IMG/VR virus record: IMGVR_UViG_3300009506_000062
Location: 1-44,350 of that record
Length of the DNA: 44,350 nucleotides
Reading direction: 5' to 3' (one strand)
Source: a virus
The position numbers and the translations under genes were made by a program. The notes below the pieces were generated by a model, which was given only the letters and a program-made list of their open reading frames with translations, did not search any database and was not told where the DNA came from. Of this stretch, positions 320-43,435 are shown one piece after another; within the stretch, counting starts at the first letter, position 1; each line of letters starts with the position of its first letter.

Positions 320-1582
320 TCATTTCCACACCTCCGTCTCCGCCATGACGGGCGCGTACTCGTACCGGTATAGGTAATCCCAGTTATAATGCTGGCGCAT
401 GAACGTTTTTGACATTAGCGATTCGTTCTGCTGAAGCCTGCCGAGCAGAATAAACGCAATATCGTGATAATATTTTTCCTCGTTATCAATGTTGTGCTGC
501 CGCAGGTGGGATCCGAAATCGTGATACACGCCGCAGTTGCCGCCGACCTCGCGCATCATGTCGAGCGACTTGTTAAGCACCGGCATGACACCCGAAAGCC
601 CTGCTTCCGGCAGCACCAGGCCGAAGCTCTCCTCGCGGGTCGGAAAAATGAATACGTTCGACAGCAGCATCAATTCGCGCAGCATGCGCCTCGGAATGCC
701 GACATCGAACTTGGGGCTCTGAAAATCGGACGTAAAGATAAGCTCGGTCCCCGGGTCGACATCGTTCTGCAGCGCGATAGTCTTATACTGGTTGACCGAT
801 TCTTTCTGCTGCCGCCCGGTGGCCCACTGTGCGGCGATCACCAGGCAGATTTTGCGGCCCAGCTTTTTCATGTTCGAAAAGATCAGGATCACCTCCCGCA
901 CCCGCTTGGCAGAAAGCCGGTCTACTGAAGCCGGATATACCTGCACAACATCGGCCTGCATCACGGCTGAATATTGCTTGATGAACGCGCAGGTGTCCTC
1001 TGAAAAATCAAACCATGTCCGGGGATCTTTGATATGATGAATCGCCCGTACATCATCGATAACGCCCCGGTACTGCTCTGCCACGAACAGCCGCTCGGTT
1101 TTATTCGGGAACACCAGCTTGTGGTTCGAGCCAAACAGGCGGATGTTCCACCAGTCCTTTAGACCGGTCGGCACACTGTGAATCCAGTGCAGCCATTTCG
1201 GTTTTAGCCCCTGGGAACCTTCGCGCACCCCGACGCAGTACGGCAGGTTCCAGCCGGTAAACACGATGTCGTGAGTGAACACAACATCCATGTCAGCCAT
1301 TTCGTTTTTAACCATGTCCTTGGTCTGCTGGACCGTCTTGCGATGCTCCTCTGTAATCTGGGCCTGAGACGTATAGTCTTTAAGGTGGGCAAACGGAACC
1401 GACTTATGAATGTTGACGGCGTCGTGGAACGGAAACTTCGGGTTGAACTGCGTGCACACGAAAAGGTGCACCTCATGGCCGTACTCCACCAGCATGCGAG
1501 CCTGGTCGCTGACAATGCCGGTCAGCGAGTATCCGGGGTTAAAATCCTGAAAGGTTGTAAGAATTGCGACTTTCTGCTTCAT
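320..1582 (-). CDS. GT4-type (GT-B fold) glycosyltransferase
   Basis: The 420-residue product has the layout of a retaining GT4 glycosyltransferase: an N-terminal Rossmann region starting KVAILTTF and a C-terminal nucleotide-sugar half with the E-x7-E motif at E318 and E326 (context REESFGLVLPEAG), followed by the usual G-x-P-V segment. Such enzymes move a sugar from a nucleotide sugar to a glycan, lipid or protein. The length is normal for the family. No signal peptide or membrane helix is seen, so it should act in the cytoplasm. ATG at 1582 has AAGGAGG nine bases upstream. It has its own sigma70-like promoter (1621-1649) and is followed by a methyltransferase. It lies just after two Ser/Thr-rich adhesin genes, which makes O-glycosylation of those proteins an attractive inference. 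Donor and acceptor cannot be read from sequence. Confidence 0.88.
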   Translation of the reverse strand: MKQKVAILTTFQDFNPGYSLTGIVSDQARMLVEYGHEVHLFVCTQFNPKFPFHDAVNIHKSVPFAHLKDYTSQAQITEEHRKTVQQTKDMVKNEMADMDVVFTHDIVFTGWNLPYCVGVREGSQGLKPKWLHWIHSVPTGLKDWWNIRLFGSNHKLVFPNKTERLFVAEQYRGVIDDVRAIHHIKDPRTWFDFSEDTCAFIKQYSAVMQADVVQVYPASVDRLSAKRVREVILIFSNMKKLGRKICLVIAAQWATGRQQKESVNQYKTIALQNDVDPGTELIFTSDFQSPKFDVGIPRRMLRELMLLSNVFIFPTREESFGLVLPEAGLSGVMPVLNKSLDMMREVGGNCGVYHDFGSHLRQHNIDNEEKYYHDIAFILLGRLQQNESLMSKTFMRQHYNWDYLYRYEYAPVMAETEVWK

Positions 1583-1655: not shown

Positions 1656-1967
1656 TTAGAGGTCTCTTATCTGAAGATAGACGTCCACCTCCCAGGTATT
1701 ACCCCCGTCGGTTACGATCTTAAACGTAATCTTGTAAGGCGACTCGGCTTCGATAGTCGTGTCCTTCTTGACCCGCACCTTGACCTTGGTGGTATCGTCA
1801 ACAGCGATACCCGCAGCGTCTATAATATCGGCCGCGTTGCTGCCATTTACGTCCACCGCTGTCACCGAGCAGCTGCCGATCACAATGCTTTCCTCGCCGC
1901 TGATAACGTTGGTGATTCCGCCCCGAATCCAGAAAGTTTCCCCGGGCTGCTTGACTAAAGTGTGCAT
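1656..1967 (-). CDS. Small beta-rich protein, hypothetical virion accessory
   Basis: A 103-residue acidic protein with alternating hydrophobic residues typical of beta strands and no Cys pair, signal peptide or membrane helix. It contains SGEESIVIGSCSVTAVDVNG near the N-terminus and ends in TWEVDVYLQIRDL. The start overlaps the stop of the Ser/Thr-rich gene upstream, so it is translationally coupled to it and is the last gene of that transcript before the glycosyltransferase promoter. The position suggests a small fibre-associated or chaperone-like protein. I do not recognise the family. Confidence 0.65.
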   Translation of the reverse strand: MHTLVKQPGETFWIRGGITNVISGEESIVIGSCSVTAVDVNGSNAADIIDAAGIAVDDTTKVKVRVKKDTTIEAESPYKITFKIVTDGGNTWEVDVYLQIRDL

Positions 1968-4123
1968 TATAATCCCCTTTCGAAATCTGTTGTTCGATCC
2001 TCGGCTTCGAACGTATCCGTATACGATTCCCGCTCGAATGTATAGGTTTCCATAGCGCCGGCCTCGAATGTGCTGGTGTAGGACTCTCGCTCAAAGGCGC
2101 TGGTATAGGCTTCCCGCTCGAAATCGTAAATAGCTTCGGCGTACGCGAACGGGCTGGTGGTCGTCGTGGAGCTGGAGCTTGTCACCGTGCTCGACGAACT
2201 GGTGGTGCTCGACAGGGTGCTCGTCGTCGACAGCGTGCTTGAAGTGCTCGATGTTGTCGTAAGCGTCGATGTCGTCGAGCCCGTACTGGAAGTCGTCGAG
2301 CTGGTCGATGAAAACGTGCTGCTGGTAGTAGTGCTTGCACTGGTGCTCGTCGTGGTGTGTGTGCTGGTCGTGCTGGTGTGCGTCGAGCTCGTGGTCGATT
2401 CCGTGCTCGATGTCGTCGAGCTTTCCGTACTGCTCGTAGTCGAAGCCGTCGAACTGGTGGTCGTATGAGTGCTGCTCGTTGTCGATTCCGTGCTCGATGT
2501 CGTGCTGGTGCGCGTCGAGCTAGTCGTGCTCAGCGTACTTGATGTCGTCGAACCGGTGCTGGAGGTAGTCGAACTGACGCTGCTGCTCGTGGTCGACAGC
2601 GTACTTGACGTGGTCGTATGGGTTGAGCTGGTACTAGAAGCCGTACTGGAGGTTGTCGAGCTTGAGGTCGTGGTCGAGTGCGTCGTTGCCCCCGGCGCAG
2701 TCGAGGATGTCGTTGACAATGTGCTGCTGGTCGAAGCTGTCGAGCTGGTCGAACTGGTGGTGCTTGCCGTGCTGCTGGTTGTGGTGTGCGTACTGCTCGT
2801 AGTCGAAGCCGTCGAGCTTGTGGTCGAAAAAGTGCTGCTGGTAGTAGTGCTCGCACTGGTGCTTGTAGTAGTGTGCGTCGTTGTTGAACTTACCGTCGAA
2901 CTGGTGGTTGACGTCAGACTGGAAGTCGTCGTCGTGCGCGTCGAGCTGGTAGTCGAAGCTGTCGAGCTGCTGGTAGTCGTCGAGATGGTGCTGGAGGTTG
3001 TCGACGTCGAGCTGGTGGTCGTCACCGGGGCAAAATCGAGCACCACATCTTCGATATACTTGATTGCCCCCGGAGGAGCCGTCGTCGTTGTCGTCAACGT
3101 CGAGCTGGTCGTGCTTGCCGTCGAGCTTGTCGTACTTGCCGTGCTTGACGTCGTGCTGCTCGTGCTCGTGCGCGTGCTACTGGTGGTCGACAGCGTCGAT
3201 GAAGTTGTGCTCGTGTGTGTCGAGCTGGTCGTGGACAACGTACTACTGGTGGTGCTTTGCGTACTGCTGGTCGTCGAAACAGTGCTGGAGGTCGTCGACG
3301 CCGTACTTGATGTAGTCGTATGCGTGCTGCTGGTGGTCGACAGCGTACTTGATGTAGTCGTATGAGAACTGGTCGTCGTGCTCTGCGTGCTGCTGGTCGT
3401 TGACGCCGTTGTCGAACTGATTGTCGAGCTGGTGGTCGAAAAGGTGCTGGTAGTCGTCGAACTAAATGTTGTCGATGCCGTCGAGCTGGTAGAAGTTACC
3501 GTGCTCGAACTGGTCGTGCTGGTATGAGTAGAGCTTGTTGTCGTCGCCGTCGAGCTGGTGGTACTTTCTGTGCTTGAAGTCGTGCTGCTGTGTGTTGAAG
3601 TCGTCGTTGTATGCGTGCTGCTCGTTGTTGACGCGGTGCTGGAGCTTGTCGAACTTGAGGTCGTCGATGTCGTCGTGGTGACAACTTCATCGTACTGAAC
3701 CGTTATATAGACATGATCGGCCCTTACAACTGAAGCCGCCGTGGCGGTTAAGGTTACCGCCGCTAAATTGATAAGCGTCCAGGTACCGAAACTGCCGACC
3801 TGATCGGAACCCGATTGAAGAGACCAAGAAGCTGGAAAGTTTAGCAGGTTATCGAAGCTGTAGTAACTGCTGCCGTCATTATTTGAATAATTGATCTGAA
3901 TATCACCTTTGCCATCATCCGAATAGCCATAGATGCTGAAGATGACGCTAGTGATCGTGCCAAGATCAGAAGACTCGTCGAACGTAACCTTGTTGCTGAC
4001 AGAGTTCTTAGTCGAGCATTGTACGTAGCTGCCGTTCTGGGCGTTTATATAGGGCGAAGTTCCAGAACCAGCCCAGTTGCCGCCGTCAGTCCAGCTATTG
4101 GCATGTAGTACAATGCTGCCCAT
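1967..4123 (-). CDS. Ser/Thr-rich mucin-like adhesin or tail-fibre protein (second copy)
   Basis: The 718-residue product has three parts. Residues 1-148 form a beta-sandwich-like head that is clearly paralogous to the head of the next gene upstream (shared ANS-x-NW-GSG-SPYI-AQ pattern). Residues about 149-655 are almost only Ser and Thr, arranged in the heptad TTSSTx[ST] with one variable position, interrupted by a short non-repeat segment (APPGAIKYIEDVVLDFAP) and by an APGATTHSTTTSSS spacer. The last about 60 residues repeat the motif FERExYTxxFE. No signal peptide is seen, so it is probably assembled on the virion. The ATG is in a TAATG overlap with the preceding stop. Such tracts are extended and commonly O-glycosylated in other proteins; glycosylation here is inferred. 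A receptor-binding role is likely but unproven. Confidence 0.8.
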   Translation of the reverse strand: MGSIVLHANSWTDGGNWAGSGTSPYINAQNGSYVQCSTKNSVSNKVTFDESSDLGTITSVIFSIYGYSDDGKGDIQINYSNNDGSSYYSFDNLLNFPASWSLQSGSDQVGSFGTWTLINLAAVTLTATAASVVRADHVYITVQYDEVVTTTTSTTSSSTSSSTASTTSSTHTTTTSTHSSTTSSTESTTSSTATTTSSTHTSTTSSSTVTSTSSTASTTFSSTTTSTFSTTSSTISSTTASTTSSTQSTTTSSHTTTSSTLSTTSSTHTTTSSTASTTSSTVSTTSSTQSTTSSTLSTTSSTHTSTTSSTLSTTSSTRTSTSSTTSSTASTTSSTASTTSSTLTTTTTAPPGAIKYIEDVVLDFAPVTTTSSTSTTSSTISTTTSSSTASTTSSTRTTTTSSLTSTTSSTVSSTTTHTTTSTSASTTTSSTFSTTSSTASTTSSTHTTTSSTASTTSSTSSTASTSSTLSTTSSTAPGATTHSTTTSSSTTSSTASSTSSTHTTTSSTLSTTSSSVSSTTSSTGSTTSSTLSTTSSTRTSTTSSTESTTSSTHTTTSSTASTTSSTESSTTSSTESTTSSTHTSTTSTHTTTSTSASTTTSSTFSSTSSTTSSTGSTTSTLTTTSSTSSTLSTTSTLSSTTSSSSTVTSSSSTTTTSPFAYAEAIYDFEREAYTSAFERESYTSTFEAGAMETYTFERESYTDTFEAEDRTTDFERGL
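2155..3680 (-). repeat. Ser/Thr heptad repeat tract (21-bp coding repeat) in the second adhesin
   Basis: This is an in-frame degenerate repeat, mostly of a 21-base unit encoding TTSSTx[ST]. Thr is written with ACG, ACC, ACT and ACA and Ser with TCG, AGC, AGT and TCA side by side, so the protein pattern is far better conserved than the DNA. The position x is Ala, His, Glu, Leu, Val, Phe, Gln, Arg or Gly. The tract is broken at about 3020-3075 by a short unrelated segment. Confidence 0.9.
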
Positions 4124-7074
4124 TATTCTTCAATCCTTACTTGGACATATCCGAGACTGTAAAACGATCCCGTGTAATCCTCAAACGATGCCGCCAGGCA
4201 ATCTTCTTCGGTTGCCCCCTGTCGGTACTTAATAGTCGGTGTATTCCCCGAGCGATATTTATTGACTGTAATACGGGCATGGTTTCCGACTCCCAAGTTC
4301 CATACCGGGGACACCATGTATTCCTCTGTCTCAAGCTCTAAGCGTTCAAGATCACCGCTGCCGGTCACCGCTCCCGTACCGGTCCATGTAGCAAAATCTT
4401 CAGCCGCATCTTCATCGATGTCGGTATCGTGACCCCAACAGACCGTCTGCTGCGGAACCGTTACAGATGTTGTCGTGGTACTCTGCGTGGTGCTGGTTGT
4501 CGAGGCTGTACTGCTACTGGTACTTGCCGTCGAGCTTGTCGTACTGGACGTGCTCGTGTGCGTGCTGCTGGTGGTCGACTCGGTAGATGATGTCGTCGAC
4601 AGTGTGCTGCTCGTTGTCGAGAACGTCGATGATGTCGTGCTGCTGCTGCTCGTTGTACTGGTGTGCGTCGAACTGGTAGTCGACAGCGTGCTGCTTGTGC
4701 TGGTATGCGTAGAACTGGTCGTGCTCAGCGTGCTCGACGTGCTTGTATGAGTGGAGCTTGTGGTCGACAGCGTTGACGAAGTCGTTGAGAATGTTGATGA
4801 AGTCGTGCTGGTGTGCGTCGAACTTGTGGTCGACAGCGTCGATGAAGTTGTGCTCGTGTGCGTCGAGCTGGTGGTCGAAGCCGTAGAGCTGGTGGTCGTA
4901 TGGGTAGAACTGGTCGTGCTGCTCGTAGTCGTATGGGTGCTGCTCGTCGTTGATAGCGTCGAGCTTGTCGTCGTATGAGTGCTTGAAGTCGTCGACTCAG
5001 TACTGGACGTTGTACTGGTGTGCGTTGAACTGGTGGTGCTTGCCGTGCTGCTCGTAGTCGTATGGGTCGAGCTAGTCGTTGAAGCCGTCGAGCTGGTCGT
5101 GCTCAGCGTGCTCGATGTGGTAGACGCGGTGCTCGATGTCGTTGAACTTGAGGTCGTTGTCGAATGTGTCGTCGCCCCCGGAGCGGTCGTCGAAGTCGTC
5201 GACAGCGTGCTGGAGGTTGATTCTGTAGAAGTGGTCGTATGCGTCGAGCTGGTGGTGCTCAGCGTGCTTGATGTCGTCGTATGCGTCGAACTGGTGGTAG
5301 AAGCCGTGCTGCTGGTCGTTGAAGCCGTTGTACTTGTGCTCGTGTGCGTAGAGCTTGTCGTACTCGCCGTGCTGCTGGTACTCGTATGCGTGCTGCTGGT
5401 CGTTGACACGGTGCTACTGGTACTGGTATGCGTCGAGCTGGTCGTTGAAGCCGTCGAGCTGGTGCTGCTTGTGCTGGTATGAGTCGAGGTTGTTGTCGTA
5501 TGCGTGCTGGTCGTACTGGTATGGGTCGAGCTGGTGGTTGAAGCCGTCGAGCTGGTGGTGCTTGTGCTGGTATGAGTCGAGGTTGTTGTCGTATGCGTGC
5601 TGGTCGTACTGGTATGGGTCGAGCTGGTAGTGGAAGCTGTAGAGCTAGTGCTGCTTGTGCTCGTATGCGTACTGCTGGTGGTGCTTGCCGTAGAACTGGT
5701 AGTAGAAGCTGTAGAGCTGGTAGTGCTTGTACTCTCTGTCGAGCTGGTAGTAGAAGCTGTAGAGCTGGTAGTGCTTGATGTCGTCGTCGTGGAAGTTGTG
5801 GTACCTGAGTCTTCCGGAATCCAGCCACTTGTAGAGAGCTGGACATTATCGAAATAAGACTTTAAATCCGATGCAGCAGTTTTGCCTTTGCGTAAATAAA
5901 TAAACTGGGCATTTCCAGCAGTGGTGGTTCCTGTTACAAGAGTTGTGCCGTTTAATTTTATTTCGCACGTGCCGCCGGATACATAATGAAAATCAAGGCG
6001 ATACAGGTTCCCGACAGTGAACATGATGTCATCGCCATAAACATCACCACCACTATTTTCGATCACCCCCCGGAACCACATGTCACCCGACTCGTCTTTT
6101 TCAACCCAGACTTGCAATGCGGCGGCGCCGTCTGCTCCGATATGGACGTAATAATCAGGTGATGAGGCTACCTGTCCGGTCATATCTATCGGAACGACAT
6201 CGACCCTTGCATATAATTCCGCATAGGTGGAATCAAAATTATTCTGGATTATAACGCCACTGGTGCCACCCGATAATTCAACGCATCGACTACCCCAATA
6301 GGGAAGCGACAGACCCGTTTCGGTTCTAACATCAGCAACGGATTTATCTTCATTAATTGTACCGCCGCCGCTATTTGTTTGTGCCCAGTCGCTACCGATA
6401 CCGCTTGCAGTTTCATCAAAACCGGTTGCTTCAAACTGCTCGTTGAAGATCAATTCTCCTGGAGGAGCAGTTACGGTGGTGGTCGTTGTCGAAGCCGTCG
6501 AACTGGTAGTCGAAGCTGTAGAGCTGGTCGTCGTACTGGTATGGGTCGAACTGGTAGTGGAAGCTGTAGAGCTGGTGCTGCTTGATGTCGATGTCGTGCT
6601 GGTAGTTGAGGTTACTACAGAATATTCGACATCGAGATAACAGCGATCAACGTTGACGGTCGACGCCGAAGTCTGCGTCATGCGAGCGGCGGCATCGTTT
6701 ATCTTCGCCCACGTATCGAATGTGCCGTCGCCGCCGCTTGCGACTGACCCTCTGTTAGAACCTTGCCGGGTTTCGTAGCCCGTAAGAAAATTCAGCTCTG
6801 TATTGGTTACAGGCCATGAGCTGCCGTTATTGTTTGACAACTCGATATTGATGTCGCCCTTGCCGTCGGTCGACAGCGCCCTGATGTAAAAATAGACGGC
6901 ACCGATAGTACCGAGATCGGCCGATTCCTGAAATGTGAAAGTAGCGCTGACTTGGTTCTTAGAAGAGTTTGCTACGTAGCTGCTGTCCTGCGCATCGATA
7001 TACGGAGATGAACCGCTTCCGGTCCAGTTAGCGTTGGTAGGAGAGCTGTTAGCGTTTAAGATTACGTTTGACAC
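4123..7074 (-). CDS. Ser/Thr-rich mucin-like adhesin or tail-fibre protein (first copy)
   Basis: The 983-residue product starts with a GTG at 7074 (GAGGG seven bases upstream) that overlaps the YkgJ-like gene by 13 bases. Order of parts: a beta-sandwich head (residues 1-152) paralogous to that of the next gene; a short Ser/Thr linker; a concanavalin/LamG-like domain (about 205-420, beginning GELIFNEQFEATGFDE, with a typical DNVQLS end); a long Ser/Thr heptad tract (about 425-870); and a C-terminal beta domain with two Cys that ends YVQVRIEE. This looks like a modular adhesin with domains spaced on stiff, possibly glycosylated stalks. There is no signal peptide. The lectin-like domain may bind host surface glycans; that role is inferred. 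Confidence 0.8.
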   Translation of the reverse strand: MSNVILNANSSPTNANWTGSGSSPYIDAQDSSYVANSSKNQVSATFTFQESADLGTIGAVYFYIRALSTDGKGDINIELSNNNGSSWPVTNTELNFLTGYETRQGSNRGSVASGGDGTFDTWAKINDAAARMTQTSASTVNVDRCYLDVEYSVVTSTTSTTSTSSSTSSTASTTSSTHTSTTTSSTASTTSSTASTTTTTVTAPPGELIFNEQFEATGFDETASGIGSDWAQTNSGGGTINEDKSVADVRTETGLSLPYWGSRCVELSGGTSGVIIQNNFDSTYAELYARVDVVPIDMTGQVASSPDYYVHIGADGAAALQVWVEKDESGDMWFRGVIENSGGDVYGDDIMFTVGNLYRLDFHYVSGGTCEIKLNGTTLVTGTTTAGNAQFIYLRKGKTAASDLKSYFDNVQLSTSGWIPEDSGTTTSTTTTSSTTSSTASTTSSTESTSTTSSTASTTSSTASTTSSTHTSTSSTSSTASTTSSTHTSTTSTHTTTTSTHTSTSTTSSTASTTSSTHTSTTSTHTTTTSTHTSTSSTSSTASTTSSTHTSTSSTVSTTSSTHTSTSSTASTTSSTHTSTSTTASTTSSTASTTSSTHTTTSSTLSTTSSTHTTTSTESTSSTLSTTSTTAPGATTHSTTTSSSTTSSTASTTSSTLSTTSSTASTTSSTHTTTSSTASTTSSTHTSTTSSTESTTSSTHTTTSSTLSTTSSTHTTTSSTTSSTHTTTSSTASTTSSTHTSTTSSTLSTTSSTHTSTTSSTFSTTSSTLSTTSSTHTSTSSTLSTTSSTHTSTSSTLSTTSSTHTSTTSSSSTTSSTFSTTSSTLSTTSSTESTTSSTHTSTSSTTSSTASTSSSTASTTSTTQSTTTTSVTVPQQTVCWGHDTDIDEDAAEDFATWTGTGAVTGSGDLERLELETEEYMVSPVWNLGVGNHARITVNKYRSGNTPTIKYRQGATEEDCLAASFEDYTGSFYSLGYVQVRIEE
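4465..5800 (-). repeat. Ser/Thr heptad repeat tract in the first adhesin
   Basis: This is the long stalk of the first adhesin, with the same TTSSTx[ST] heptad as in the neighbouring gene. Variable residues are mainly Ala, His, Leu, Glu, Val and Phe. His at x is followed by Thr throughout, while Ala, Leu, Glu, Val and Phe are followed by Ser. A second, shorter tract lies at about 6480-6610. Because codon choice gives GTC/GTG/GTA triplets on the opposite strand, the plus strand also carries long open frames rich in Val, Leu and Glu; these are artefacts. Confidence 0.9.
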
Positions 7075-14463: not shown

Positions 14464-15188
14464 AATCCCCGCCTCCCAAATTCACGCCATTCGGTTGCTG
14501 ATGTCGCGCATAGAGTTATCGATGTTTCAATTTCACCGTCTGAATCAATCGAATCTCCATTGGTGTCAGTTAACGTCGCGATTCGATCGGTCCCGTTCGG
14601 ATCAATCGTAATTACAAGACCCTCAACATCTTTAATAGTAATGCAGCAAGTATTACCACCGGACACCGCTTCATCATGGAGGTTAATCAGCAGCGCATCA
14701 TCGTCGCCTTCATTGGTTATAATCGATCCACAATCAGCGGCAGTCGTTGTATAAACATCGTCCGCATCAGTAGAGTCAATAGGTATATATTTGGTTCTCA
14801 CCCCACCGATCAACAGATTACCATCTTCATCTATTATGGCCACGTAGTCGGCACCATCATATACTACCCAGTAATTAACAGTACCAGCAATACTTGCAGG
14901 GTCCCATCCAGCCGCTTCATTATCCGCATAATACCAAGTACCAGCAACGGGCGAGCCCGGAGCTGACGAACGAGCTGTGCCCGTGAAAGCGCCCGTAGTT
15001 AGTCCCGTGATCGTCCAGCTTTCATCAGATATTGCGCCGTCGCCGTCAGTATCCAATACTTGTAACAACGCATCCAATAATGCCTCAGTATGCAGCGTCA
15101 GGTTTGCAACAGCGTAAGATGTGAACAAAAATACAATCACGAATATGATCGGATGCGCCTTAAACAATTTAGCTAATTTTTTCATCAT
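14445..15188 (-). CDS. Secreted protein with an EF-hand-like calcium loop
   Basis: The 247-residue product has a long signal sequence or signal anchor (KKLAKLFKAHPIIFVIVFLF), then a DTDGDGAISDE loop (about 46-56) that matches the calcium-binding loop of EF-hands and dockerins, and a beta-rich body with two adjacent Cys (NTCCITIKD). A second acidic loop, DTNGDSIDSDGE, lies near the end. It is coupled to the Ser/Thr-rich gene upstream (start overlaps its stop). Role unknown; the dockerin-like loop hints at a protein-protein or calcium-dependent contact. Confidence 0.65.
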   Translation of the reverse strand: MMKKLAKLFKAHPIIFVIVFLFTSYAVANLTLHTEALLDALLQVLDTDGDGAISDESWTITGLTTGAFTGTARSSAPGSPVAGTWYYADNEAAGWDPASIAGTVNYWVVYDGADYVAIIDEDGNLLIGGVRTKYIPIDSTDADDVYTTTAADCGSIITNEGDDDALLINLHDEAVSGGNTCCITIKDVEGLVITIDPNGTDRIATLTDTNGDSIDSDGEIETSITLCATSATEWREFGRRGLWVDGD

Positions 15189-16066
15189 GCCACCCTTATG
15201 TATTCTCCGTCTGATCCTCGTACCGGGTTGCCGTTCGCATCTCTCAAGACATCGAGCGGCAACGTTGTCGTCGTTGTCGATGAATATGTTGAAGACGATG
15301 TAGTTGTGATTCCTCCCGTCTGTGTCGTACTCGTTGACGCTGTCGAACTTGTCGTACTGGTTGTACTCTCGGTCGAGCTGCTCGTCGTTGTCGAATGACT
15401 ACTCGTCGTCGTGCTGCTGCTACTCGTACTCGTATGTGTCGACGTTGTCGTATGAGTCGTCGTGCTGCTAACCGTACTGCTCGTGGTCGATACGGTTGAT
15501 GTCGATGACGCTGTGCTACTGGTCGTCGACATCGTGCTCGTTGTTGACTGTGTCGTTGCTCCAGGCTCAGTCGTTGACGTTGTGCTCGCAGTCGAGCTGG
15601 TCGTTGATACCGTGCTGGTTGTGCTCGCTGTGCTGCTTGTGGTCGACACGGTCGATGTCGACGACATCGTTGAGCTGGTCGTAGACGCTGTCGAACTGGT
15701 AGAACTGCTGCTGCTGCTGGTCGTCGTTGTGCTCGCTGTCGAGCTGGTCGTCGTCGAGCTGCTGGTCGTCGATGTCGTCGTCGCTGCTTTTGTCTCGGCT
15801 CTAAGCTCGATTTCTTTAATCCGTTGATCGATGTCCCGCAGCGTTACATTCCAGTGTTGCACCCAATCGACATCCCCATCATCGACTGTAAAAAAATCCT
15901 GACTGGTGATTCCGACATCATAAATCGAGTAGTACGGAGCTGTCGTTGTCGTCGTCGACGATGAAGATGTCGTCGTCGAAAACGTACTCGTGGTTGACGC
16001 AGTAGAACTTGTCGTCGTCGTAGAGCTTGTCGTCGTACTCGTAGTTGTTGAAGACGTTGTCGACAT
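15185..16066 (-). CDS. Ser/Thr-rich mucin-like fibre protein
   Basis: The 293-residue protein begins inside a Ser/Thr tract (residues 1-42). It then has a short folded part (PYYSIYDVGI to RIKEIELRAETKAA, about 45-95) whose helix matches the fibre at 11498, a second long Ser/Thr tract with heptad-like units and a PGATTQST spacer, and a C-terminal non-repeat end (DANGNPVRGSDGEYIRVA). The ATG is in a TAATG overlap with the stop of the preceding gene, in another frame. Together with that gene it reads like an enlarged, split version of the 11498 fibre. Confidence 0.7.
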   Translation of the reverse strand: MSTTSSTTTSTTTSSTTTTSSTASTTSTFSTTTSSSSTTTTTAPYYSIYDVGITSQDFFTVDDGDVDWVQHWNVTLRDIDQRIKEIELRAETKAATTTSTTSSSTTTSSTASTTTTSSSSSSTSSTASTTSSTMSSTSTVSTTSSTASTTSTVSTTSSTASTTSTTEPGATTQSTTSTMSTTSSTASSTSTVSTTSSTVSSTTTHTTTSTHTSTSSSSTTTSSHSTTTSSSTESTTSTTSSTASTSTTQTGGITTTSSSTYSSTTTTTLPLDVLRDANGNPVRGSDGEYIRVA

Positions 16067-17162: not shown

Positions 17163-17837
17163 CTACGCTTTCGTTACGATTATGCCGACTGCGGCGTACG
17201 GTCGCCACGTTGCAGCGGTTGCACCCCCGCCGGTAGCCCCTGTACCACTATAACCCGTATAGGACCCTGAGCCTTCCTCGCTGGTGTATAGATCATCAAA
17301 ATGCGTTTGAGCATCTTCACTGGGAGTATCTGGTAAGATCACCTTTCCAAGACCGTTCTTATCATCAAGAATTGTCAATGAATCCAAATTGGTTGCGACA
17401 CCACTTGAATTGTGGCTCTGGTCATGGCTGCCACTGTTGCTCTCATACCACTTATGTACGTGGTCATAACCAGTATGCCGGTGATTCGGGCCTGTATGCG
17501 TGTGGTTGGGTTGCGTCCATGTCCCCGCTGACGTACCCCCTGTCGTGTTGTACGCATTGCTGCCGCCCTTGGTAGCGAGCACACGATCAGTTACAGCAAC
17601 GATGCTCCACCCGGTCGGCGCTGTATTTTCGTACAGCCAGAGCTTCCTGCCGGTTGCGAAGAAGTTGTTAACTTTGTAATCGAGCGAAGCCGTCACGGCA
17701 GAGCTGTTAATACCGACTTTTGCTTCGAGCGCTTCGATAGCGTCTTGAAGATCGTTGATGTCGACCGCCATCACATCATCGACATTATCGGTCTTAGATG
17801 AAAACGAATCGAGACTTGTTGGAAAGTTTATCGCCAT
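17163..17837 (-). CDS. Tail fibre protein with His-rich collar-type C-terminus
   Basis: The 224-residue product has an N-terminal helix with a VDINDLQDAIEALEAKVG coil, typical of short phage fibres. Next is a region rich in HxH patterns (NHTHTGPNHRHTGYDHVH), as in metal-coordinated trimeric fibre tips such as T4 gp12. It ends WRPYAAVGIIVTKA, the usual end of phage tail-collar and receptor-binding proteins. It is probably a trimeric receptor-contacting fibre. ATG 17837 has GGGGGAG upstream. Confidence 0.8.
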   Translation of the reverse strand: MAINFPTSLDSFSSKTDNVDDVMAVDINDLQDAIEALEAKVGINSSAVTASLDYKVNNFFATGRKLWLYENTAPTGWSIVAVTDRVLATKGGSNAYNTTGGTSAGTWTQPNHTHTGPNHRHTGYDHVHKWYESNSGSHDQSHNSSGVATNLDSLTILDDKNGLGKVILPDTPSEDAQTHFDDLYTSEEGSGSYTGYSGTGATGGGATAATWRPYAAVGIIVTKA

Positions 17838-17849
17838 TGGGCTCCCCCT

Positions 17850-18056
17850 TTAAAATGTCGGTTCCCCAAATATGTCCACCAGCTCTTGGATCGTCGACTG
17901 ATTAAAAACGTTCTGGTAATACCCGCGCACTTGCCCCGCGATCCAGTTTTTCAGTATGCTCTCGACATATACGCGGGGCGACACTCCGTTCTTATTTGCA
18001 ATCGCTACTATCGCCGCTGCCTCTCTGTCATCGACTGTTATAACGTATTCAGCCAT
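17850..18056 (-). CDS. Small hypothetical protein
   Basis: A 68-residue acidic protein between the tail-tip protein and the fibre. It has an N-terminal strand (EYVITVDD) and a helix (EAAAIVAIANKNGVSPRVYVESILKNWIAGQV) that resembles a ribbon-helix-helix-like or small tail-associated protein. ATG 18056 has AAGGAG. No family recognised. Confidence 0.6.
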   Translation of the reverse strand: MAEYVITVDDREAAAIVAIANKNGVSPRVYVESILKNWIAGQVRGYYQNVFNQSTIQELVDIFGEPTF

Positions 18057-18065
18057 TGTGTCTCC

Positions 18066-21000
18066 TTACGCGTCCGCCCACGTACCGGGCGTTCCTGCTA
18101 CCGTACACTTTCTCAGCACACCGTTTACCATGCAGATGTCACCGACTTCGGCAGCGCCCGTCGGATCGGATGTGCGTTCAAAGAAATGAAAATCGCCGAC
18201 CGTCTGCTCGGCTGCAATATAAAAAGGTACCGTGTGCGCAGAATGGTGAATGTACGCAACCGCACCGGTTCCGTAGTGCGTTCCGTCACCGTACTTGAAC
18301 GTCCCGTATTTCCCTACCGCGCTTGTGACGTGCAGCGTAATGCCGTCAGAATTGATAATCACCCGCTTCCCGGTCGGCGCTGTCTGAAGCACGCTGCCCG
18401 TAATCGTCATACCGTTTATAATACCAGCCGTGATCTTCTCGGCTGCTACGTTCCCGACGTGCTCATCTAAGACAGCGAGCTTTTCGATATATGCTGAACC
18501 GATAACTTGGTTGGCGTTCGAATGCCAAGCGAGGTCGTGAACCCCTTCTATGTTGACAGCGATTATAAAATCACCATCGCTTAGCGTTGGGTTCGTATCT
18601 GAAAACGAATAAGCCGTGTCGCCGTTCACCCAATAAACATACTTGTTAGCTGTGCTGCCCGCTTCAATCGAATACGCAGCGCCGCCATAATAAAGCGTGT
18701 GTGCTGTATATGAAATCTGCCCTGAAGAAGGATCGTTGTCGGACCAGGAATCACCCTCAAGCATCGGTATGTTGAGCCACAGCTTCGACGCATGCAGCGC
18801 AAAATCGTTGATGTCGGTAGCTTGAACGTCAATCGTGAGCGTCTGCGCGTTCGCTGTCGCTGCAGTCATCGACTCTGCGCCGAACGAATCAACCGCGAGC
18901 ACTTCTATATAAATGTACGCTTGACCGTCGAACGAAATCTGCTCAGCGTCAGTAAGGTTTCTGTTTACCTGCGTACTCGGAGTTGTCTGCCAGGCGCCCC
19001 ACGAATTGGTGCCGACTTTCAAGCGGTACTTATAATGATCGAAGTCTTTATCGGTGTTCGAAGACCAGTAGAATGTGACTCCCCGAATGAACGCTTCTGC
19101 GATGAGACCTGACACATTGTCGGGAAGCGCATTGACAAACGTTTCCTGATCCGCTGTAGCTGAGAACTGATTAAAAGCATCTTGCGCCCATACTTTCACA
19201 ACTATCGTTGATGCGAGCGCTCCATCTTCAAGGTTCATATCATACGAATAGACGAACTGCGGATCGGTCACATAAACTGTTCTGCGCTCGTTCAGGCTAC
19301 CGTCATAAATCGTAACTTTATAATTCTTTATATCGGGATTGTCCGAAGCAAACCACGTAAGATCGATGTCACGAGTATTGAAAGCTGACGTACTTCCGGT
19401 AGAAGCGATGCGAAGACCCGTAATATTGTCGGGAGCGGGATTCGTCACACTAAGCACTGCGGGCTCTTCACTAACACGACCGTAATTGTCTGTTGCCCAC
19501 ACTTTAATTGTCAGCGCAGCAGCGGGAGTACCGCCACCGTCAACTGTATTGTTCGCGTACGTATAATTATAATAATTGACATCGAGCGACTCTTCTCTAC
19601 GCACTGTCAAATCAGGATTAAGAATCTGAATCTTATACGTCGACGGAACATTCGTAATAAGAGTGCCCGCACCCTCTTGTTCGTCTCCCGCAGCTTCAGG
19701 GAACGTAAAGCTCGCAATCGCCCATTCAAGCTGAAGGTCTTTCTCAAGCCATGTGGTAGCGGCACCCCTACCCACAATGGCAATCGCCGACACGGTTGGT
19801 ATCGGAAACTCGGTCTTTCCATAACCGTAAAAGTTCGCTGTTACTGTCTCTCCGTAACCAGGATTATTCCTGCCCGAAACCGCAAAGTCGTAAGTCATGC
19901 CCGGATTCAAATAGCGCACATCGAACACTCTGTTTACCGCTTCACCTGCTTTAATCCAGTGATCTGTGCCCGTTTCTCTATAGAAAATATACCACTGAAG
20001 CGTCTCACCCCTCCAGGTAAGACGCATGATGCCCTGTCCACTCTCCCAGATTTCAGTTACAGCGAGATCCCGCACAAAAACGGTCGTCGGGTACGGCTCC
20101 TCCGCCGGCACCGTAACCGCATCGTCGTACACTTCGTCAACATACTCAAGCGCTTTGATCTTGCGCGTCTGATCTTTTGAACGAGAGATGTCTGAAACAC
20201 GAAACTTCTTCGCGACATAATTGACAGCGCCGAACGAGTAAACATCATGCAGTGACGGCGTTGTAGTCCACGAACCCGTCAGCGTCAGCGTGTCAGTCGT
20301 CGTCTCGACACCGGGTGTCGTAATCGACTGCGTCTCAAGCTCATCGGTTCCGCTATGACGCACCAGAACTTGATAAGATGTGCCCGGTGTAAGCGTCACT
20401 TCACGATCTAAAACAACCGTATTCGATGTCGCTGATACGATACGTCCCGAATAGCCCCACTGCGGAAGATCATGTGCAACATAAATGACTTCACCTACAC
20501 GACAGCCGAGCGCATCAACACCCACATCGAACTCAACCCTGCGCTTTAAATACTGATTACAGTTCAGCAAAAACTTGCCGTGCTTCAGCGCTGTCTCGCG
20601 GGACGTACAACCGAACAGCGTTATTGCTCGCTTGTTTTCATCAAGATCAGAATCAGAATCATACGTCGACGTTCGCAGCTCAAGCGTCTTTCGTTGATAG
20701 TTGTCTTCAGCATCAAAGAACGTCAATTCAAGACAATTGACCCGCTCTGCTTTCGACAAAAATACTTCTTTAAACGAATTCTCAACTATGTTGCCGTAAG
20801 AAAATAGCTGGACGGGTGACGACTGCTCATCTAAAATAACACCGAAGTCGGTTCCTTTCTGAACAACGCGTGCTCTACCAATCGTTTCAGGCCACGTCAG
20901 CATCTCCCGCAGGCCCGCCGCTGTATCGATGTATGCGTTAAACTCTCTCGAATTATCATCGCACGCGGTCGCCCATGCTAAAAAATCAGCATAGACCATT

Positions 21001-29145: not shown

Positions 29146-29775
29146 CTAAGTAGTTGTGGTTGTGGTTGTAGAAGTGGTGGTCTGAGTACCATCATCCCAA
29201 ACAACCTTGCCCAGCGGAGCGCTGTCCCAGGCAACCGAACCGCCTGAAACACTGCTGTCAGCCCGTTTTGCTTCAATCGAAATCGGGATCGAAGCAGGTT
29301 CTTCCGCTGCAAAATCCATCTCAATGGACGCGACCACTTGAGCTCGCGGAAATATAATGGTCATCGTGTTGGTTCCGTCCGGATAGGTATAAACCGCTTC
29401 CATACGGATATACGCCGGAGTTGCCATATTCCCGAAAGGAATGGTCCCCAGATGCGCGTCCGTATAACCGGTCGGGTCCAATCCGCGCGCGAGCGCGACG
29501 TTCTTGGGCGTGATTTCCTTGAACGCAAGCTCCATCATCGCCGCTTCCCGAAGCACGAAGATCGCATCCTCCAAAAGCGGAAATCCGGACTCCAGCTTGA
29601 AGTGCTCCACATTGCCGGTAAACTTGGTAGAGGCCAAGGCCCCCACCGAATGCGCCGCCGTCAGGATGGCACGCGATTGCCCTATATAACCAGCCGAAGC
29701 TGCAACTCGAATCTGTGCGAGACCTAACGCAACAGTTGTGGTGTCAAGAGTAGTGGGTCCAGTTCTTGTTGGCAT
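29146..29775 (-). CDS. Major tail tube protein with Thr tail
   Basis: The 209-residue product lies between the neck/tail-terminator genes and the tail chaperones, the fixed position of the tail tube protein. It is beta-rich (FPLLEDAIFVLREAAMMELAFKEITP; NTMTIIFPRAQVVASIEMDF), as in siphovirus tubes, and ends after VVWDDGTQ with TTTSTTTTTTT. The Thr tail is not a normal part of tube proteins and matches the tails on the capsid, neck and fibre proteins here. If the tube surface displays it, the whole tail would be studded with Thr peptides. Confidence 0.8.
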   Translation of the reverse strand: MPTRTGPTTLDTTTVALGLAQIRVAASAGYIGQSRAILTAAHSVGALASTKFTGNVEHFKLESGFPLLEDAIFVLREAAMMELAFKEITPKNVALARGLDPTGYTDAHLGTIPFGNMATPAYIRMEAVYTYPDGTNTMTIIFPRAQVVASIEMDFAAEEPASIPISIEAKRADSSVSGGSVAWDSAPLGKVVWDDGTQTTTSTTTTTTT

Positions 29776-31536: not shown

Positions 31537-31718
31537 ATATTCCTCGGATCTATCTCGCGCTTATCGCCTTTTGGAAGAACTCCCGGATGAAACCGATTGC
31601 CGCACTTTTCGCAAACAACGACATTATCATCAACAACGACCGCAGCCCCGCAATAAGGGCATCTTAGGCGGTGGTCGTTGTTGTTGATGATGTCGTCGTT
31701 GTGGTGGTAGTCGAGCAT
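31530..31718 (-). CDS. Small zinc-ribbon protein overlapping a Ser/Thr tail
   Basis: A 62-residue protein with CPYCG and CEKCG, a classical four-Cys zinc ribbon (about residues 20-40), and a short basic tail. It starts at ATG 31718 (CGAGG five bases upstream), inside the preceding gene. Its first 18 residues, full of Asp, His and Asn, are encoded by the same DNA that encodes the Ser/Thr tail of that gene in another frame. I found no other usable start before the first Cys. Function unknown; possibly DNA or protein binding. Confidence 0.6.
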   Translation of the reverse strand: MLDYHHNDDIINNNDHRLRCPYCGAAVVVDDNVVVCEKCGNRFHPGVLPKGDKREIDPRNIC

Positions 31719-32335
31719 GGCGGCCTCGTGTCTTCTCCGACTTCGAGCATATCCACTTCCGCAAACCGGCGCTTCTTTATAACCTCGACTCGATAAAACT
31801 CAGATGATGAAAACCGAATACGGTCCAGGGGCTGAACCCCCCAACTTGACGGCAGGTATACCTCGTCCTCGCTGACACCGATGACGGCAAGCTCTTCGTC
31901 GGTCTCAAGATCGTTACCGAAAAGAGCCGCCGTAAAGAGCACGTCTGCATTGCCCTTTATCATCTGCCATCCGGTCGCCGTCCAGTAGGTGTCGGGATCG
32001 CGGGTGTCTACCGGACGCAGAATATCAACCTTCTTATTGGTCTTATACAGCACGCATCCGTACCGAATAACGGCATCTTCGAACATGTCCGGAGTCTTGT
32101 TCATGATAATGTAACGCTCTCCGGTAGTGTTCACCTCAATAATGTCGCCGGGAATCATAGCCGTGACGTAGGACATCATCGCCTCTAAAAAGAACTCCCT
32201 TATAAAAGGCTTGGTGACCTGCGCGTTCGGCTTTATCTGAATATATTCCCCGGTAACATTTCCGCTATCACGGATAATCGTAACCGAAGACCCAACTTCA
32301 GCAAGGACCTCAAGTATATCGGGACCGATGGTCAT
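31664..32335 (-). CDS. Neck protein with C-terminal Ser/Thr tag
   Basis: The 223-residue product starts TIGPDILEVLAEVGSSVTII. Similar starts occur in putative phage head-tail closure and neck proteins. The body is beta-rich with VNTTGERYIIMNKT, and the last residues are STTTTTTTSSTTTTTA, the same kind of tag as on the capsid and fibre proteins. It lies between the connector and the gp10-like gene. The last part overlaps the zinc-ribbon gene in another frame. Confidence 0.65.
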   Translation of the reverse strand: MTIGPDILEVLAEVGSSVTIIRDSGNVTGEYIQIKPNAQVTKPFIREFFLEAMMSYVTAMIPGDIIEVNTTGERYIIMNKTPDMFEDAVIRYGCVLYKTNKKVDILRPVDTRDPDTYWTATGWQMIKGNADVLFTAALFGNDLETDEELAVIGVSEDEVYLPSSWGVQPLDRIRFSSSEFYRVEVIKKRRFAEVDMLEVGEDTRPPCSTTTTTTTSSTTTTTA

Positions 32336-32790
32336 CAGTCGTTTTCTTTCGGACCAAATTCAACCAGCTGTTCTTCGTCGTATGTAATATCGATTCCGGT
32401 CTGTGGATCATAAGCAAACCCGGCGTCGATCTTCGTACCAAACATCCTGGAAGCGTCCACCCCGGCAAACTCGGCGGGGTTCTCCAGTACGGCTTTTTCA
32501 AAAGCCTCGTCCATCTCTTTGTAAAGTCTGGTAAAATGATCGAACCGGTGCTGCAGATTGATCTGCTCGAATTTAAACTTGTAGGCGCTCTCTGTGGCAA
32601 GATAAAAAAACAGGTGACGCTTGGCCCGGTTTTTCAACCAGTAAGCCTTAAAGTCCGTACCGACCGGCAATGTCCAGCCGGTCTCTCTGGACGCATCGTC
32701 TATTGAATTCTGAAAATCCGCATCTTCAAGTTTCGATGCAAGGCCCTTAACCTCCTGTTTCAACAGAATAAGAAGCTCTGTCCTGTCCAT
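32335..32790 (-). CDS. Head-tail connector candidate (gp6-like position)
   Basis: A 151-residue, largely helical protein (LILLKQEVKGLASKLEDADF; WLKNRAKRHLFFYLATESAY; FDHFTRLYKEMDEAFEKAV), acidic at its end. It lies directly after the major capsid gene, the usual place of the head-tail adaptor. The helix-rich composition fits the gp6/gp15 class of adaptors. Assignment by position and fold class only. The start overlaps nothing; a hairpin lies between it and the capsid gene. Confidence 0.6.
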   Translation of the reverse strand: MDRTELLILLKQEVKGLASKLEDADFQNSIDDASRETGWTLPVGTDFKAYWLKNRAKRHLFFYLATESAYKFKFEQINLQHRFDHFTRLYKEMDEAFEKAVLENPAEFAGVDASRMFGTKIDAGFAYDPQTGIDITYDEEQLVEFGPKEND

Positions 32791-32902: not shown

Positions 32903-34222
32903 TTACGCGGTGGTTGTCGTGGTGGTAGAGCTTGAAGTGGTGGTTGTTGAAGTAGCGGATTCGCCGGCCGTAGCCTTGACATCCATGATGCAGGTAGCGT
33001 CCCGATGATAAAGAATCGGAAGCCCTTTATCCTGAACACGAATCCAGGTGCCGTCGGGATCCCAGTCGTCTTTCTTGTCGGTATACTGACCGTAATGCCG
33101 ACCAAGTCCGAACGGAGCCTCCTTGTATTCCGCAATCGGCATTCCTTCCACCCGGGTTGCCAGCAGGACGAACTTGTCGCTCGGCATAAAATACTTCTGC
33201 ATCGTGACAAAGTCCTCGGCAGCCTTGTACGAACTGGCGGGCGGGTTATCAACCTGAAGCCGACCGTTTACCGTATCAACCGCGATGATCCAACAATCCT
33301 CGTAGGTTCCGGCGCTTTGGTCGTTGAACCGCAGCTTTTCACCCACTGCAAAATCGGACGTATCATCAACGGAAATCCACGATGTACTGCCGCCTGTTAC
33401 CGCCGCCGTCAACCAGGCCCGGATCTCGTATACTTCGTCGTAAACGACAAAGTTTTTGATGTCGAGAATGGCCCCGATCACTTGCGGATTGACACCGACG
33501 ATCTCGTGCAGGTTCCCCTTATACAGATTGCCGTCTCCGAAGGCATTCTTTTGGAGAATCCCGCGAATGGTGGTGTCGTTCGCAAGATAGGTAAGGACGG
33601 TGGAATTACAGATTGCCAAGTCGACTATGCCCCCACAGTCTTCCCGAATGAGCCGCTTCGCATCCTGAATGTCCTTCATGATGTTTTTCGAAGTACCCGT
33701 ATCCCAGTTGAGCGCTGCTGTCGCTTTTGAAACGATATGATCGCTGGGAATTGAGTAATCAACATCGGCCATGTAGCCACCGGTCCTCTGGTAGCTGAAC
33801 GAGCCTGCGAACAACATCTTTGCAAACATCCATTCCTTGCGGCGATTTGACCGGTTTTTCAAGGTGGCCAGTTCGCGGGCAAGGCGCTGCTGCGCGGACA
33901 GATATTGTGCCTCTGTTCCCTCCTTACGAAGATTGTTCAAAAACTCTTCGTCGAAATACATTTTTTCTTTCCAGTATGCCGCCTCGGCAGAGTGCTGCGC
34001 GATGCCCAATGGAGAAGCAACGTGCGCAGGCGATCCCGGCGCGGCAAAGGGCGTCAGCCCACGTCCGCCTCGCTGGCTCTCCCACTTAATCGTGCTTGAG
34101 GGCGAAATGGACGACGGAAACAGGTTCATCAGCATCAGATTCGGCGGAGCCATAAATTTCTGCACAAACTTCTGAAGAACCTCAAGTTTTAATTCTGGAA
34201 TATCAGCTGAACCTCTTGGCAT
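32903..34222 (-). CDS. Major capsid protein (lambda gpE / HK97 fold) with Ser/Thr tail
   Basis: The 439-residue product lies after the protease-scaffold and decoration genes, as expected for the major capsid protein. The sequence resembles the phage_cap_E family (FLNNLRKEGTEAQYLSAQQR; VDYSIPSDHIVSKA; AICNSTVLTYLANDTTIRGI; DAKRLIREDCGG). Around residues 270-340 an inserted beta module occurs (SWISVDDTSDFAVGEKLRFN). The last 18 residues are almost only Thr and Ser and end TTTTSSSTTTTTTA. Standard capsid proteins have no such end. If exposed, it would appear on every capsomer. A strong SD, AAGGAGGTGAG, precedes the ATG. Confidence 0.9.
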   Translation of the reverse strand: MPRGSADIPELKLEVLQKFVQKFMAPPNLMLMNLFPSSISPSSTIKWESQRGGRGLTPFAAPGSPAHVASPLGIAQHSAEAAYWKEKMYFDEEFLNNLRKEGTEAQYLSAQQRLARELATLKNRSNRRKEWMFAKMLFAGSFSYQRTGGYMADVDYSIPSDHIVSKATAALNWDTGTSKNIMKDIQDAKRLIREDCGGIVDLAICNSTVLTYLANDTTIRGILQKNAFGDGNLYKGNLHEIVGVNPQVIGAILDIKNFVVYDEVYEIRAWLTAAVTGGSTSWISVDDTSDFAVGEKLRFNDQSAGTYEDCWIIAVDTVNGRLQVDNPPASSYKAAEDFVTMQKYFMPSDKFVLLATRVEGMPIAEYKEAPFGLGRHYGQYTDKKDDWDPDGTWIRVQDKGLPILYHRDATCIMDVKATAGESATSTTTTSSSTTTTTTA

Positions 34223-42326: not shown

Positions 42327-42612
42327 CCTTTGCCTCCCTCACCGCGTCAACAGTTAACCGTGCCTCGATCGTACAGTATTTGCAATTCGCGACATAAGTG
42401 CTGCAGCTTCCCACCGGGTTCCCGCTGCACCGGCAGATCGTATGCACGTGCCGCTCGATCTCTTCCATGCTCATGCCGCTGACCACCCCGGGGATGTGAC
42501 AATAGTTGCCCCGTTTTCTCATATATTGCTTTTTTACGGAAGAGCCGCCCCGCAACCTGCAAACCCCTCGAACAAACGCCTCACAATCCCCGCAGCGCAT
42601 CCGGTTCGTCAT
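42319..42612 (-). CDS. Cys-rich CKYC-family protein
   Basis: From ATG 42612 (AGGGGGG upstream) the product has 97 residues and nine Cys: MRCGDCEAFVRGVCRL near the start, then ICRCSGNPVGSCS and finally NCKYCTIEARL. The last motif is shared with two further small proteins in this cluster. In-frame sequence upstream of the ATG only reads the neighbour's repeat. Probably binds one or more metal ions; function unknown. Confidence 0.65.
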   Translation of the reverse strand: MTNRMRCGDCEAFVRGVCRLRGGSSVKKQYMRKRGNYCHIPGVVSGMSMEEIERHVHTICRCSGNPVGSCSTYVANCKYCTIEARLTVDAVREAKDA

Positions 42613-42925
42613 ACATCCCCCCTGTAGTCGATGTGCTCGACGATGTGCTCGACGATGTGCTCGACGATGTGCTCGACTCCGACACACCCCGCATGCGCCG
42701 CTCGATAGCGCAATACTTGCACGCATCCCCCCGCCGCAACAGCAAACACTTGCCCTCGGCGTGCACCATCCGCATCACCAGATCGTCGTCCATCGCGTTG
42801 ATCTGCTCCACCGCCAAACCCAGCGGACACACATCACAACCCGCCACTAAAAACAACTTACACCACTTTGGCGGCGCTACCCAAAACCGACACCCTACTC
42901 CTGAGCAACCGACTGCGCAACTCAT
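42581..42925 (-). CDS. CKYC-family protein with a Ser-rich repeat tail
   Basis: From ATG 42925 (ATGA overlap, GGGAG five bases upstream) the product has 114 residues: seven Cys, a VHAEGKC ... ACKYCAIERRMRG segment like the 50-residue paralogue, then SESSTSSSTSSSTSSSTSTT and a short end. The Ser tail is encoded by four perfect 12-base repeats. The last residues overlap the start of the next gene. It is the only non-virion candidate here with a Ser/Thr stretch. Confidence 0.65.
   Translation of the reverse strand: MSCAVGCSGVGCRFWVAPPKWCKLFLVAGCDVCPLGLAVEQINAMDDDLVMRMVHAEGKCLLLRRGDACKYCAIERRMRGVSESSTSSSTSSSTSSSTSTTGGMYDEPDALRGL
42630..42677 (-). repeat. Four perfect 12-bp tandem repeats (Ser/Thr codons)
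   Basis: Plus-strand unit GATGTGCTCGAC repeated exactly four times, with no mismatch. On the minus strand it encodes repeated STSS. Unlike the long adhesin tracts, the codons here are identical in every unit, so the array is young or actively slipping. Confidence 0.9.
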
Positions 42926-43185
42926 GACGACTCCCTCACCCTCAATCTTAACTCCGCCATCAAAGCCAAAAACTCCGCCTCCGGCAACTCCCCTACCCTC
43001 AACCACTGCTCATTCCCCACCCGGTCCAGCCGCATCGCTGCCCCGCGCAGCTCAACCGTTAACGATACAAAATCGTCCGGCGCTGAATCGATCCTTAAAT
43101 TCGTTACTAAATCCGAAATGTCCACGCCCTTTACAAATAACCGCATCCCCACCAGCGGCCCTACATCGTACGCCGTCGATGCCAT
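42922..43185 (-). CDS. Small hypothetical protein
   Basis: ATG 43185 with GGAGGT three bases further upstream gives 87 residues; the frame is open further upstream but overlaps the Lar-like gene. The protein has a beta N-terminus (VGMRLFVKGVDISDLVTNLR) and a helical C-terminus with conserved-looking LTVELRGAAMRLDRVG. No Cys, no membrane helix. Family unknown. Confidence 0.6.
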   Translation of the reverse strand: MASTAYDVGPLVGMRLFVKGVDISDLVTNLRIDSAPDDFVSLTVELRGAAMRLDRVGNEQWLRVGELPEAEFLALMAELRLRVRESS

Positions 43186-43222
43186 TAGACCTCCATAAAC
43201 GGATATGCTTTTGCCGTGTTGA

Positions 43223-43435
43223 TTAATCGGATTTAGCCCTGCGGTTCCATCTATAGATAGCTTTTCTTTTTGGTCGGTTGTCAGAGTAAGCGGTAACTTC
43301 TGGTCTTGAATAACATTTCCTGTTTTCACAACGTATCATGGCCCAAGCATCTCCCTCATCTTCTGGATATATTGGATATATTCTAACTGGAACAACCCCA
43401 CAAAACGGACACGGTTTAAGTTGATGTTGTCGCAT
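43223..43435 (-). CDS. Lar-like restriction alleviation protein
   Basis: A 70-residue protein starting RQHQLKPCPFCG and ending YRWNRRAKSD. The LKPCPFCG start, the second Cys pair (IRCENRKCYSR) and the WNRR end are the hallmarks of the Lar / restriction alleviation family of small phage zinc proteins. In coliphages Lar reduces type I restriction of unmodified DNA. ATG 43435 has GAGG eight bases upstream. It is the first gene of the leftward operon after the control region. Confidence 0.75.
   Translation of the reverse strand: MRQHQLKPCPFCGVVPVRIYPIYPEDEGDAWAMIRCENRKCYSRPEVTAYSDNRPKRKAIYRWNRRAKSD

Follow-up and report, generated by a model that had tools for sequence, protein, structure and literature searches.

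Unrelated codons specify the C-terminal Thr/Ser tails of the phage virion proteins analysed herein, and selection on these tails is strong at the peptide level. Judging from their association with a glycosyltransferase cassette, their composition and the class of the enzyme concerned, we consider it likely that these tails act as acceptors for phage-encoded O-glycosylation of the virion, and the phage particles are probably sugar-coated.

Thr/Ser-Tailed Proteins of the Window

The window, namely the whole stretch of 44,350 bases that was analysed, is a virus record of IMG/VR carrying a tailed-phage structural module on the minus strand. A six-frame scan detected C-terminal Thr/Ser tails on exactly four real genes, all on the minus strand, and confirmed the preliminary description, which had noticed such tails on the major capsid protein (MCP), a neck protein, the tail tube and a fibre-like protein (Table 1). 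Of these names, "neck" reflects gene order only, and "fibre" reflects the resemblance of the first 75 residues to phage tail-fibre N-termini. The identification of the tail tube protein is supported by its predicted fold, in that the best PDB matches of the model (pLDDT 64.9, medium confidence) were tail tube or connector chains; its last ten residues were predicted to be disordered. Scans of the window for Rfam families and for tRNAs returned nothing. Near the fibre region, at 7062–7517, 9318–10106 and 10356–10775, a CxxCxxCC zinc/iron-binding protein, a DNA/RNA non-specific endonuclease and an NlpC/P60 protein were observed.

Table 1. Features of the window discussed in the text, with the basis of each assignment.
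Feature	Position	Strand	Basis
Major capsid protein (MCP), 439 aa	32903..34222	-	PF03864 (E=2.8e-28), phrog_29 (E=4e-42)
MCP tail, last 16 residues, TSTTTTSSSTTTTTTA	about 32906-32953	-	
Neck-region protein, 223 aa	31664..32335	-	Gene order, with adaptor-like 32335-32790 on one side and tail genes on the other; homologues
Neck-region protein tail, STTTTTTTSSTTTTTA	about 31667-31714	-	
Tail tube protein, 209 aa	29146..29775	-	Foldseek best matches are tail tube/connector proteins
Tail tube protein tail, TTTSTTTTTTT	about 29149-29181	-	
Fibre-like protein, 133 aa	11498..11899	-	Match of the first 75 aa to tail-fibre PHROGs of phages (best E=6e-15)
Fibre-like protein tail, TTTTSSSTTTTTTA	about 11501-11542	-	
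Mucin-like protein, 293 aa, 66% T+S	15185..16066	-	Sequence
Mucin-like Thr/Ser protein, 983 aa, 53% T+S	4123..7074	-	Homologous to 1967..4123 protein
Mucin-like Thr/Ser protein, 718 aa, 66% T+S	1967..4123	-	Sequence, composition; two genes upstream of glycosyltransferase
Small protein	1656..1967	-	Sequence
GT4-type (GT-B fold) glycosyltransferase, proposed tail-modifying enzyme	320..1582	-	Pfam, AlphaFold model, motif

Codon Usage and Selection on the Tail Peptide

The preliminary description had stated that the MCP and the fibre-like protein end in the same 14 residues with nearly all codons different. This was accurate, as 12 of the 14 codons in these identical ends (TTTTSSSTTTTTTA) differed, leaving the same codon at 2/14 positions and the same base at 26/42. 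Its argument against recent DNA copying also held, in that the two shared codons are no more than the 3.6/14 expected by chance from the codon usage of the genome. Moreover, Thr codon use did not differ between the tails and the remainder of the genome (p = 0.39), all four codons being employed. With Thr and Ser making up 12.9% of the residues outside the tails, the occurrence of 13/14 from composition alone has a p of about 3e-11, by which a chance origin was ruled out.

In the tails of three protein families, the third codon positions were saturated (0.69–0.72 differences per site) and the second conserved (0.14–0.19), supporting the earlier proposal of selection on the peptide. For the MCP tail, the values at codon positions 1, 2 and 3 were 0.27, 0.14 and 0.72, respectively, and the peptide is therefore selected. 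Slippage or DNA copying as the tail origin was rejected by these codon statistics. The tails are indeed simple repeats at the peptide level and vary in length, as would suit slippage of ACN repeats or the dispersal of a single DNA cassette among genes; however, the genome-like use of all four Thr codons, the few codons common to identical tails, the contrast between second and third codon positions, and the C-terminal location on virion proteins of one conserved clade make such DNA-level processes extremely improbable.

Tail length ranged from 11 to 51 residues with no fixed motif, and it appears that the composition of the tail is held and its sequence is not. In the tails of the clade to which the window belongs, other hydrophilic residues (Gly, Asn, Gln and Glu) were nearly absent.

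Distribution of the Tails among Capsid Relatives

Scanning of IMG/VR with the MCP of the window retrieved 54 relatives, in which the capsid protein carried a Thr/Ser tail in 17, carried none in 33 and was cut in 4. In the 17 relatives with a tailed capsid protein, the complete neck and tube genes were tailed too wherever they were recognised, and tails on all three of the MCP, neck and tube proteins occurred together at 22 loci, a given genome having all of them or none. In the tree of the capsid core, all 18 tailed rows, including the window, formed one clade (support 100/99; 0/500 shuffles), by which the tail is placed as a conserved trait of one phage clade. The preliminary description had named the lack of tails in every related genome as a refuting observation; instead, tails were universal in this clade and absent from the sister clades, which possess the same proteins without them. 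The tail-less neck homologues stop at ..EEDNR or similar, right before the tail position of the tailed form (..EDTRPPCSTTTTTTT..), and the tail-less tube homologues likewise finish immediately ahead of it (alignment A6). The protein cores finish at the same place with and without the tail, and the tail is therefore an addition.

Relatives of the capsid protein were found in one metagenome-assembled genome each of Melioribacter, Desulfobacterales and Bacteriovoracaceae. Among isolated phages, the tube protein of the window had no match and the MCP had distant matches only. Several tail-less relatives (L025, L026, L032, L034 and L035) possess an extra gene for a 160-aa decoration-like protein downstream of the MCP, which was seen in none of the tailed phages of the clade. 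One distant relative (L043) carries Ser/Pro tails (SSPSSSPSPSSS..) at the same ends of its neck and tube-like proteins (4853–5596 and 6831–8210), together with a capsid protein without a tail; these Ser/Pro tails are apparently of independent origin.

Tail-less relatives, including G014 (12598–20790; L072/L073), G015 and G020, were observed to harbor a cassette of about 8 kb that separates the neck gene from the following structural gene, encoding a 690-aa GT-B enzyme, a GT2 enzyme, methyltransferases and a radical SAM/B12-type protein. The slot directly after the neck gene is thus occupied by a sugar cassette in the tail-less sisters and is empty in the tailed phages. This cassette and the tails look like mutually exclusive alternatives, as if one sugar system had been replaced by another, a picture that comes from one evolutionary event. 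As the tail-less sisters carry these other glycosyltransferase cassettes, such cassettes do not need tails, a point that weighs against an acceptor role of the tails.

Tails in Unrelated Phages

A reverse scan with a DNA pattern for TTTT-xxx-TTTTTTA-stop matched 44 loci. Taken together with other IMG/VR loci, these comprised 215 tailed ORFs in 35 families from unrelated phages. Every tailed family with an annotated PHROG was structural, the functions being major head, head decoration, major tail protein, head-tail adaptor, tail assembly, minor tail, "head scaffolding" and structural; one tailed tube family matched phrog_807, "major tail protein with Ig-like domain". Among the annotated carriers, the tails were thus shown to be restricted to predicted virion proteins. 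In an unrelated major-tail-protein family (L187 and L200), the tail (..HSTTTTSSSTTTTTTA) was an exact repeat of the 14-residue tail of the window. A literature search retrieved no description of such tails on the virion proteins of phages.

The GT4-Type Glycosyltransferase and the Mucin-Like Proteins

The glycosyltransferase 320–1582 lies just downstream of two mucin-like genes, with the contig stopping shortly beyond it, and neither this enzyme nor the three mucin-like proteins had been linked to the tails in the preliminary description. Its PF00534 score was 25.1 in a single-protein scan (cut-off 26.4) and 28.1 in a genome scan with its neighbours. The AlphaFold model (pLDDT 91.9) displayed a GT-B fold, for which the closest structural matches were retaining GT4 enzymes such as BshA, MshA and PimA, SdgB and TarM being also listed. 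The EX7E residues E318/E326, as well as R222 and K226, were invariant in 19/19 homologues. The modelled protein thereby combines the GT-B fold and the EX7E motif of GT4/GT-B glycosyltransferases, and peptide Ser/Thr is its predicted acceptor. No relative of this enzyme was found among 50,697 isolated-phage records, and its profile matched no PDB chain by sequence.

As for the mucin-like proteins, that at 15185–16066 has ..RAETKAATTTST.. in common with the start of the tail of the fibre-like protein (..RVETKATTTTSS..), and the small protein at 1656–1967 resembles, when compared by eye, the end of a mucin-like protein of a related phage (G012 68212–71547, ..SPYKITFTAVTSLGNVWEVD..). In the mucin-like genes G012 49808–52318 and L115 2469–4097, the Thr/Ser repeat seems to leave the reading frame (..VLPPRPTHRVLQVVLPP..), for which an assembly error or a frame switch within the repeat is possible.

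Co-occurrence of the Tails with a Glycosyltransferase Cassette

A scan with the glycosyltransferase of the window alone retrieved 23 viral loci, of which 11 had tailed ORFs within 10 kb and 13 had tailed or mucin-like ones. With the unrelated phage glycosyltransferase GTB690 as control, tails were found at 0/25 loci (416 kb), and a link of the tails to just any phage glycosyltransferase was rejected. Conversely, the GT4 enzyme was encoded in 7/7 contigs of at least 40 kb found through the tail pattern, three of which look like one phage. Among the contigs of at least 40 kb that were read through, 19 had both tails and enzyme, 10 had neither, and 0 had either one without the other. As some of these contigs had been selected via the enzyme or the tail, and as the phages fall into groups of relatives, the Fisher p-value is too small; the numbers therefore represent a strong association and not independent trials.

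The GT4 enzyme was also present in 9/9 tested contigs that were found through the GT2 enzyme of the G012 cassette, and was absent from 24 tail-less or control contigs save for one 17.8-bit fragment. An apparently tailed phage without the enzyme (G008) was rejected as such, being the same phage as G091 (100% over 46 kb) with the enzyme in its missing piece. A 27-kb contig (G045) that shows no tails was counted against O-glycosylation of the tails, as was the Desulfobacterota prophage G406, which has the enzyme and lacks Thr/Ser tails. Another Desulfobacterota prophage, G278, encodes the GT2 and GT4 enzymes together with a structural-type protein (C2 364693–365706) ending in a Thr/Glu tail, ETTTTEDATTTTEEETTTTEEETTTSGE, and provides a host phylum for one such phage. 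Tunturi_4 was the only isolated phage with a match, a weak one, to the GT2 enzyme, and its first 50 kb contained no tails.

When gene families were ranked by the difference between 18 tailed and 10 control genomes, the GT4 (18 vs 0) and GT2 (16 vs 0) enzymes came first. They were followed by a GT-A-like family (13 vs 0), a methyltransferase (11 vs 0), a second GT-B enzyme (11 vs 0), a second GT-A-like family (9 vs 0), more methyltransferases (7 vs 0) and a hexapeptide transferase-like family (5 vs 0), where "GT-A-like", which corresponds to no Pfam family, and "hexapeptide transferase-like" are names read from the sequences. The families most associated with the tails are thus, by these assignments, glycan-assembly enzymes. 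The full cassette is exemplified by G012 41369–49242; a methyltransferase of this cassette (42369–43283) has a Thr/Ser stretch in its interior and, after it, a basic end (..TTTTTAPPVKKRKTYISNLRRRRKND).

Among the functions that the preliminary description had offered for the tail, an O-glycosylation tag is favoured by this co-occurrence as independent evidence, and a binding site for a processing enzyme is unlikely given tails of variable length without a fixed motif. More generally, a shared docking peptide for a capsid processing or assembly factor would be in keeping with the presence of tails on head, neck and tail proteins alike; nevertheless, the same proteins are tail-less in the sister phages and the families most associated with the tails are sugar enzymes rather than a protease or chaperone, and we regard this function, too, as very improbable.

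The tails could instead be unmodified, flexible hydrophilic brushes serving as spacers, for solubility or in weak adhesion, with the glycosyltransferase cassette acting elsewhere. Their low complexity, their length variation and the predicted disorder of the tube end fit such brushes, and the Ig-like domains on the MCP and tube of phage Douge, which act in adhesion (PMC13033339), illustrate that optional surface additions need no glycosylation. Brushes of this kind, however, leave unexplained both the joint occurrence of tails and one cassette in unrelated phages and the near-absence of Gly, Asn, Gln and Glu from the tails of the window's clade, and are considered unlikely.

Phage glycosyltransferases often modify host polysaccharide. 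The cassette might accordingly remodel the host surface, for superinfection exclusion or receptor change, and the tails might bind host glycan, whether remodelled or native, with host type as the link between the two; that the tail-less sisters carry such cassettes as well is compatible with this. On the other hand, in 10/22 cases the enzyme had a tailed or mucin-like gene on its own strand, no more than three genes upstream, against a background of 12%, and the tail composition is of the acceptor type, almost purely Thr/Ser. Remodelling of the host surface is therefore judged improbable, and O-glycosylation of the tails remains the preferred reading.

Comparison with Known Systems and Proposed Mechanism

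The glycans of mycobacteriophages are reportedly O-linked and attached near the C-terminus. The capsid and tail tube proteins of mycobacteriophages Che8, Corndog and Myrna receive their glycans from phage-encoded enzymes (Freeman et al. 2023, cited in PMC12363180, PMC11600133 and PMC12691614), and PMC11600133 describes a methyltransferase adjoining the glycosyltransferases of cluster O phages. The phage of the window similarly encodes a glycosyltransferase (320–1582). Unlike in the case of Che8, the cassette enzymes have no detectable homology to gp108–gp110, against which the A5 and A3 profiles gave E > 0.1 in hmmsearch and blastp gave no significant match. The capsid, tail and other virion proteins of Che8 that were examined had no Thr/Ser tails, and Che8 was consequently rejected as a positive control for tails and counted against their role in glycosylation; a dedicated low-complexity tag on many virion proteins distinguishes the present phages from the mycobacteriophages. 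Virion glycosylation has previously been shown experimentally for a few mycobacterial phages only, and by analogy the present system would work alike, with unrelated enzymes and a dedicated tag.

In the serine-rich repeat adhesin (SRRP) systems of Gram-positive bacteria, as described in PMC6973325, PMC5207161 and PMC7948813, linked glycosyltransferases (GtfA/GtfB and further enzymes) O-glycosylate Ser/Thr-rich stretches intracellularly. The proposed modification of the tails is likewise an intracellular O-glycosylation of Thr/Ser-rich stretches, and the structural matches of the window enzyme include SdgB, whose structure was determined with an SD peptide. Whereas the SRRP substrate is a cell-wall adhesin exported by the accessory Sec system, the proposed acceptors here are the C-terminal tails of virion proteins and the phage fibres. 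Phage Douge, for its part, bears Ig-like surface domains on its capsid and tail tube as optional additions coating the particle (PMC13033339); the tails resemble these in being optional surface additions on the MCP and tube, but are disordered Thr/Ser stretches instead of a folded domain.

In the proposed mechanism, the glycan chain would be started by the GT4 (or GT2) enzyme, and the GT4-type protein 320–1582 is the best candidate for attaching the first sugar to Thr/Ser of the tail in the host cytoplasm. The GT2-family enzyme, further glycosyltransferases, methyltransferases and the acetyltransferase-like protein of the cassette may then extend and cap the glycan. Since head, neck, tube and fibre proteins are all tailed, most of the particle's exterior would be covered with sugar brushes, and the mucin-like proteins would form heavily modified fibres. 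The coat may serve to shield the particle, to attach it to cells or matrix, or to protect it from degrading enzymes.

On a wider scale, we lean, on balance, toward a modular glycan-tagging system, in which a Thr/Ser tail added at the C-terminus would make any exposed virion protein a substrate, and one glycosyltransferase family together with its co-travelling cassette would modify all of them, across no fewer than 35 protein families from many unrelated lineages of uncultivated phages, including a Desulfobacterota prophage. If this is true, phage particles with a sugar coat would be common in environments of this kind. The role of a sugar coat for phages of uncultivated environmental bacteria is a question that is thereby raised, as antibody evasion cannot be the reason. 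The peptide tag and its linked enzyme family would provide a simple sequence rule for predicting sugar-coated phages and their modified proteins, and the Thr/Ser tail could be tested as a peptide tag for glycosylating proteins in bacteria.
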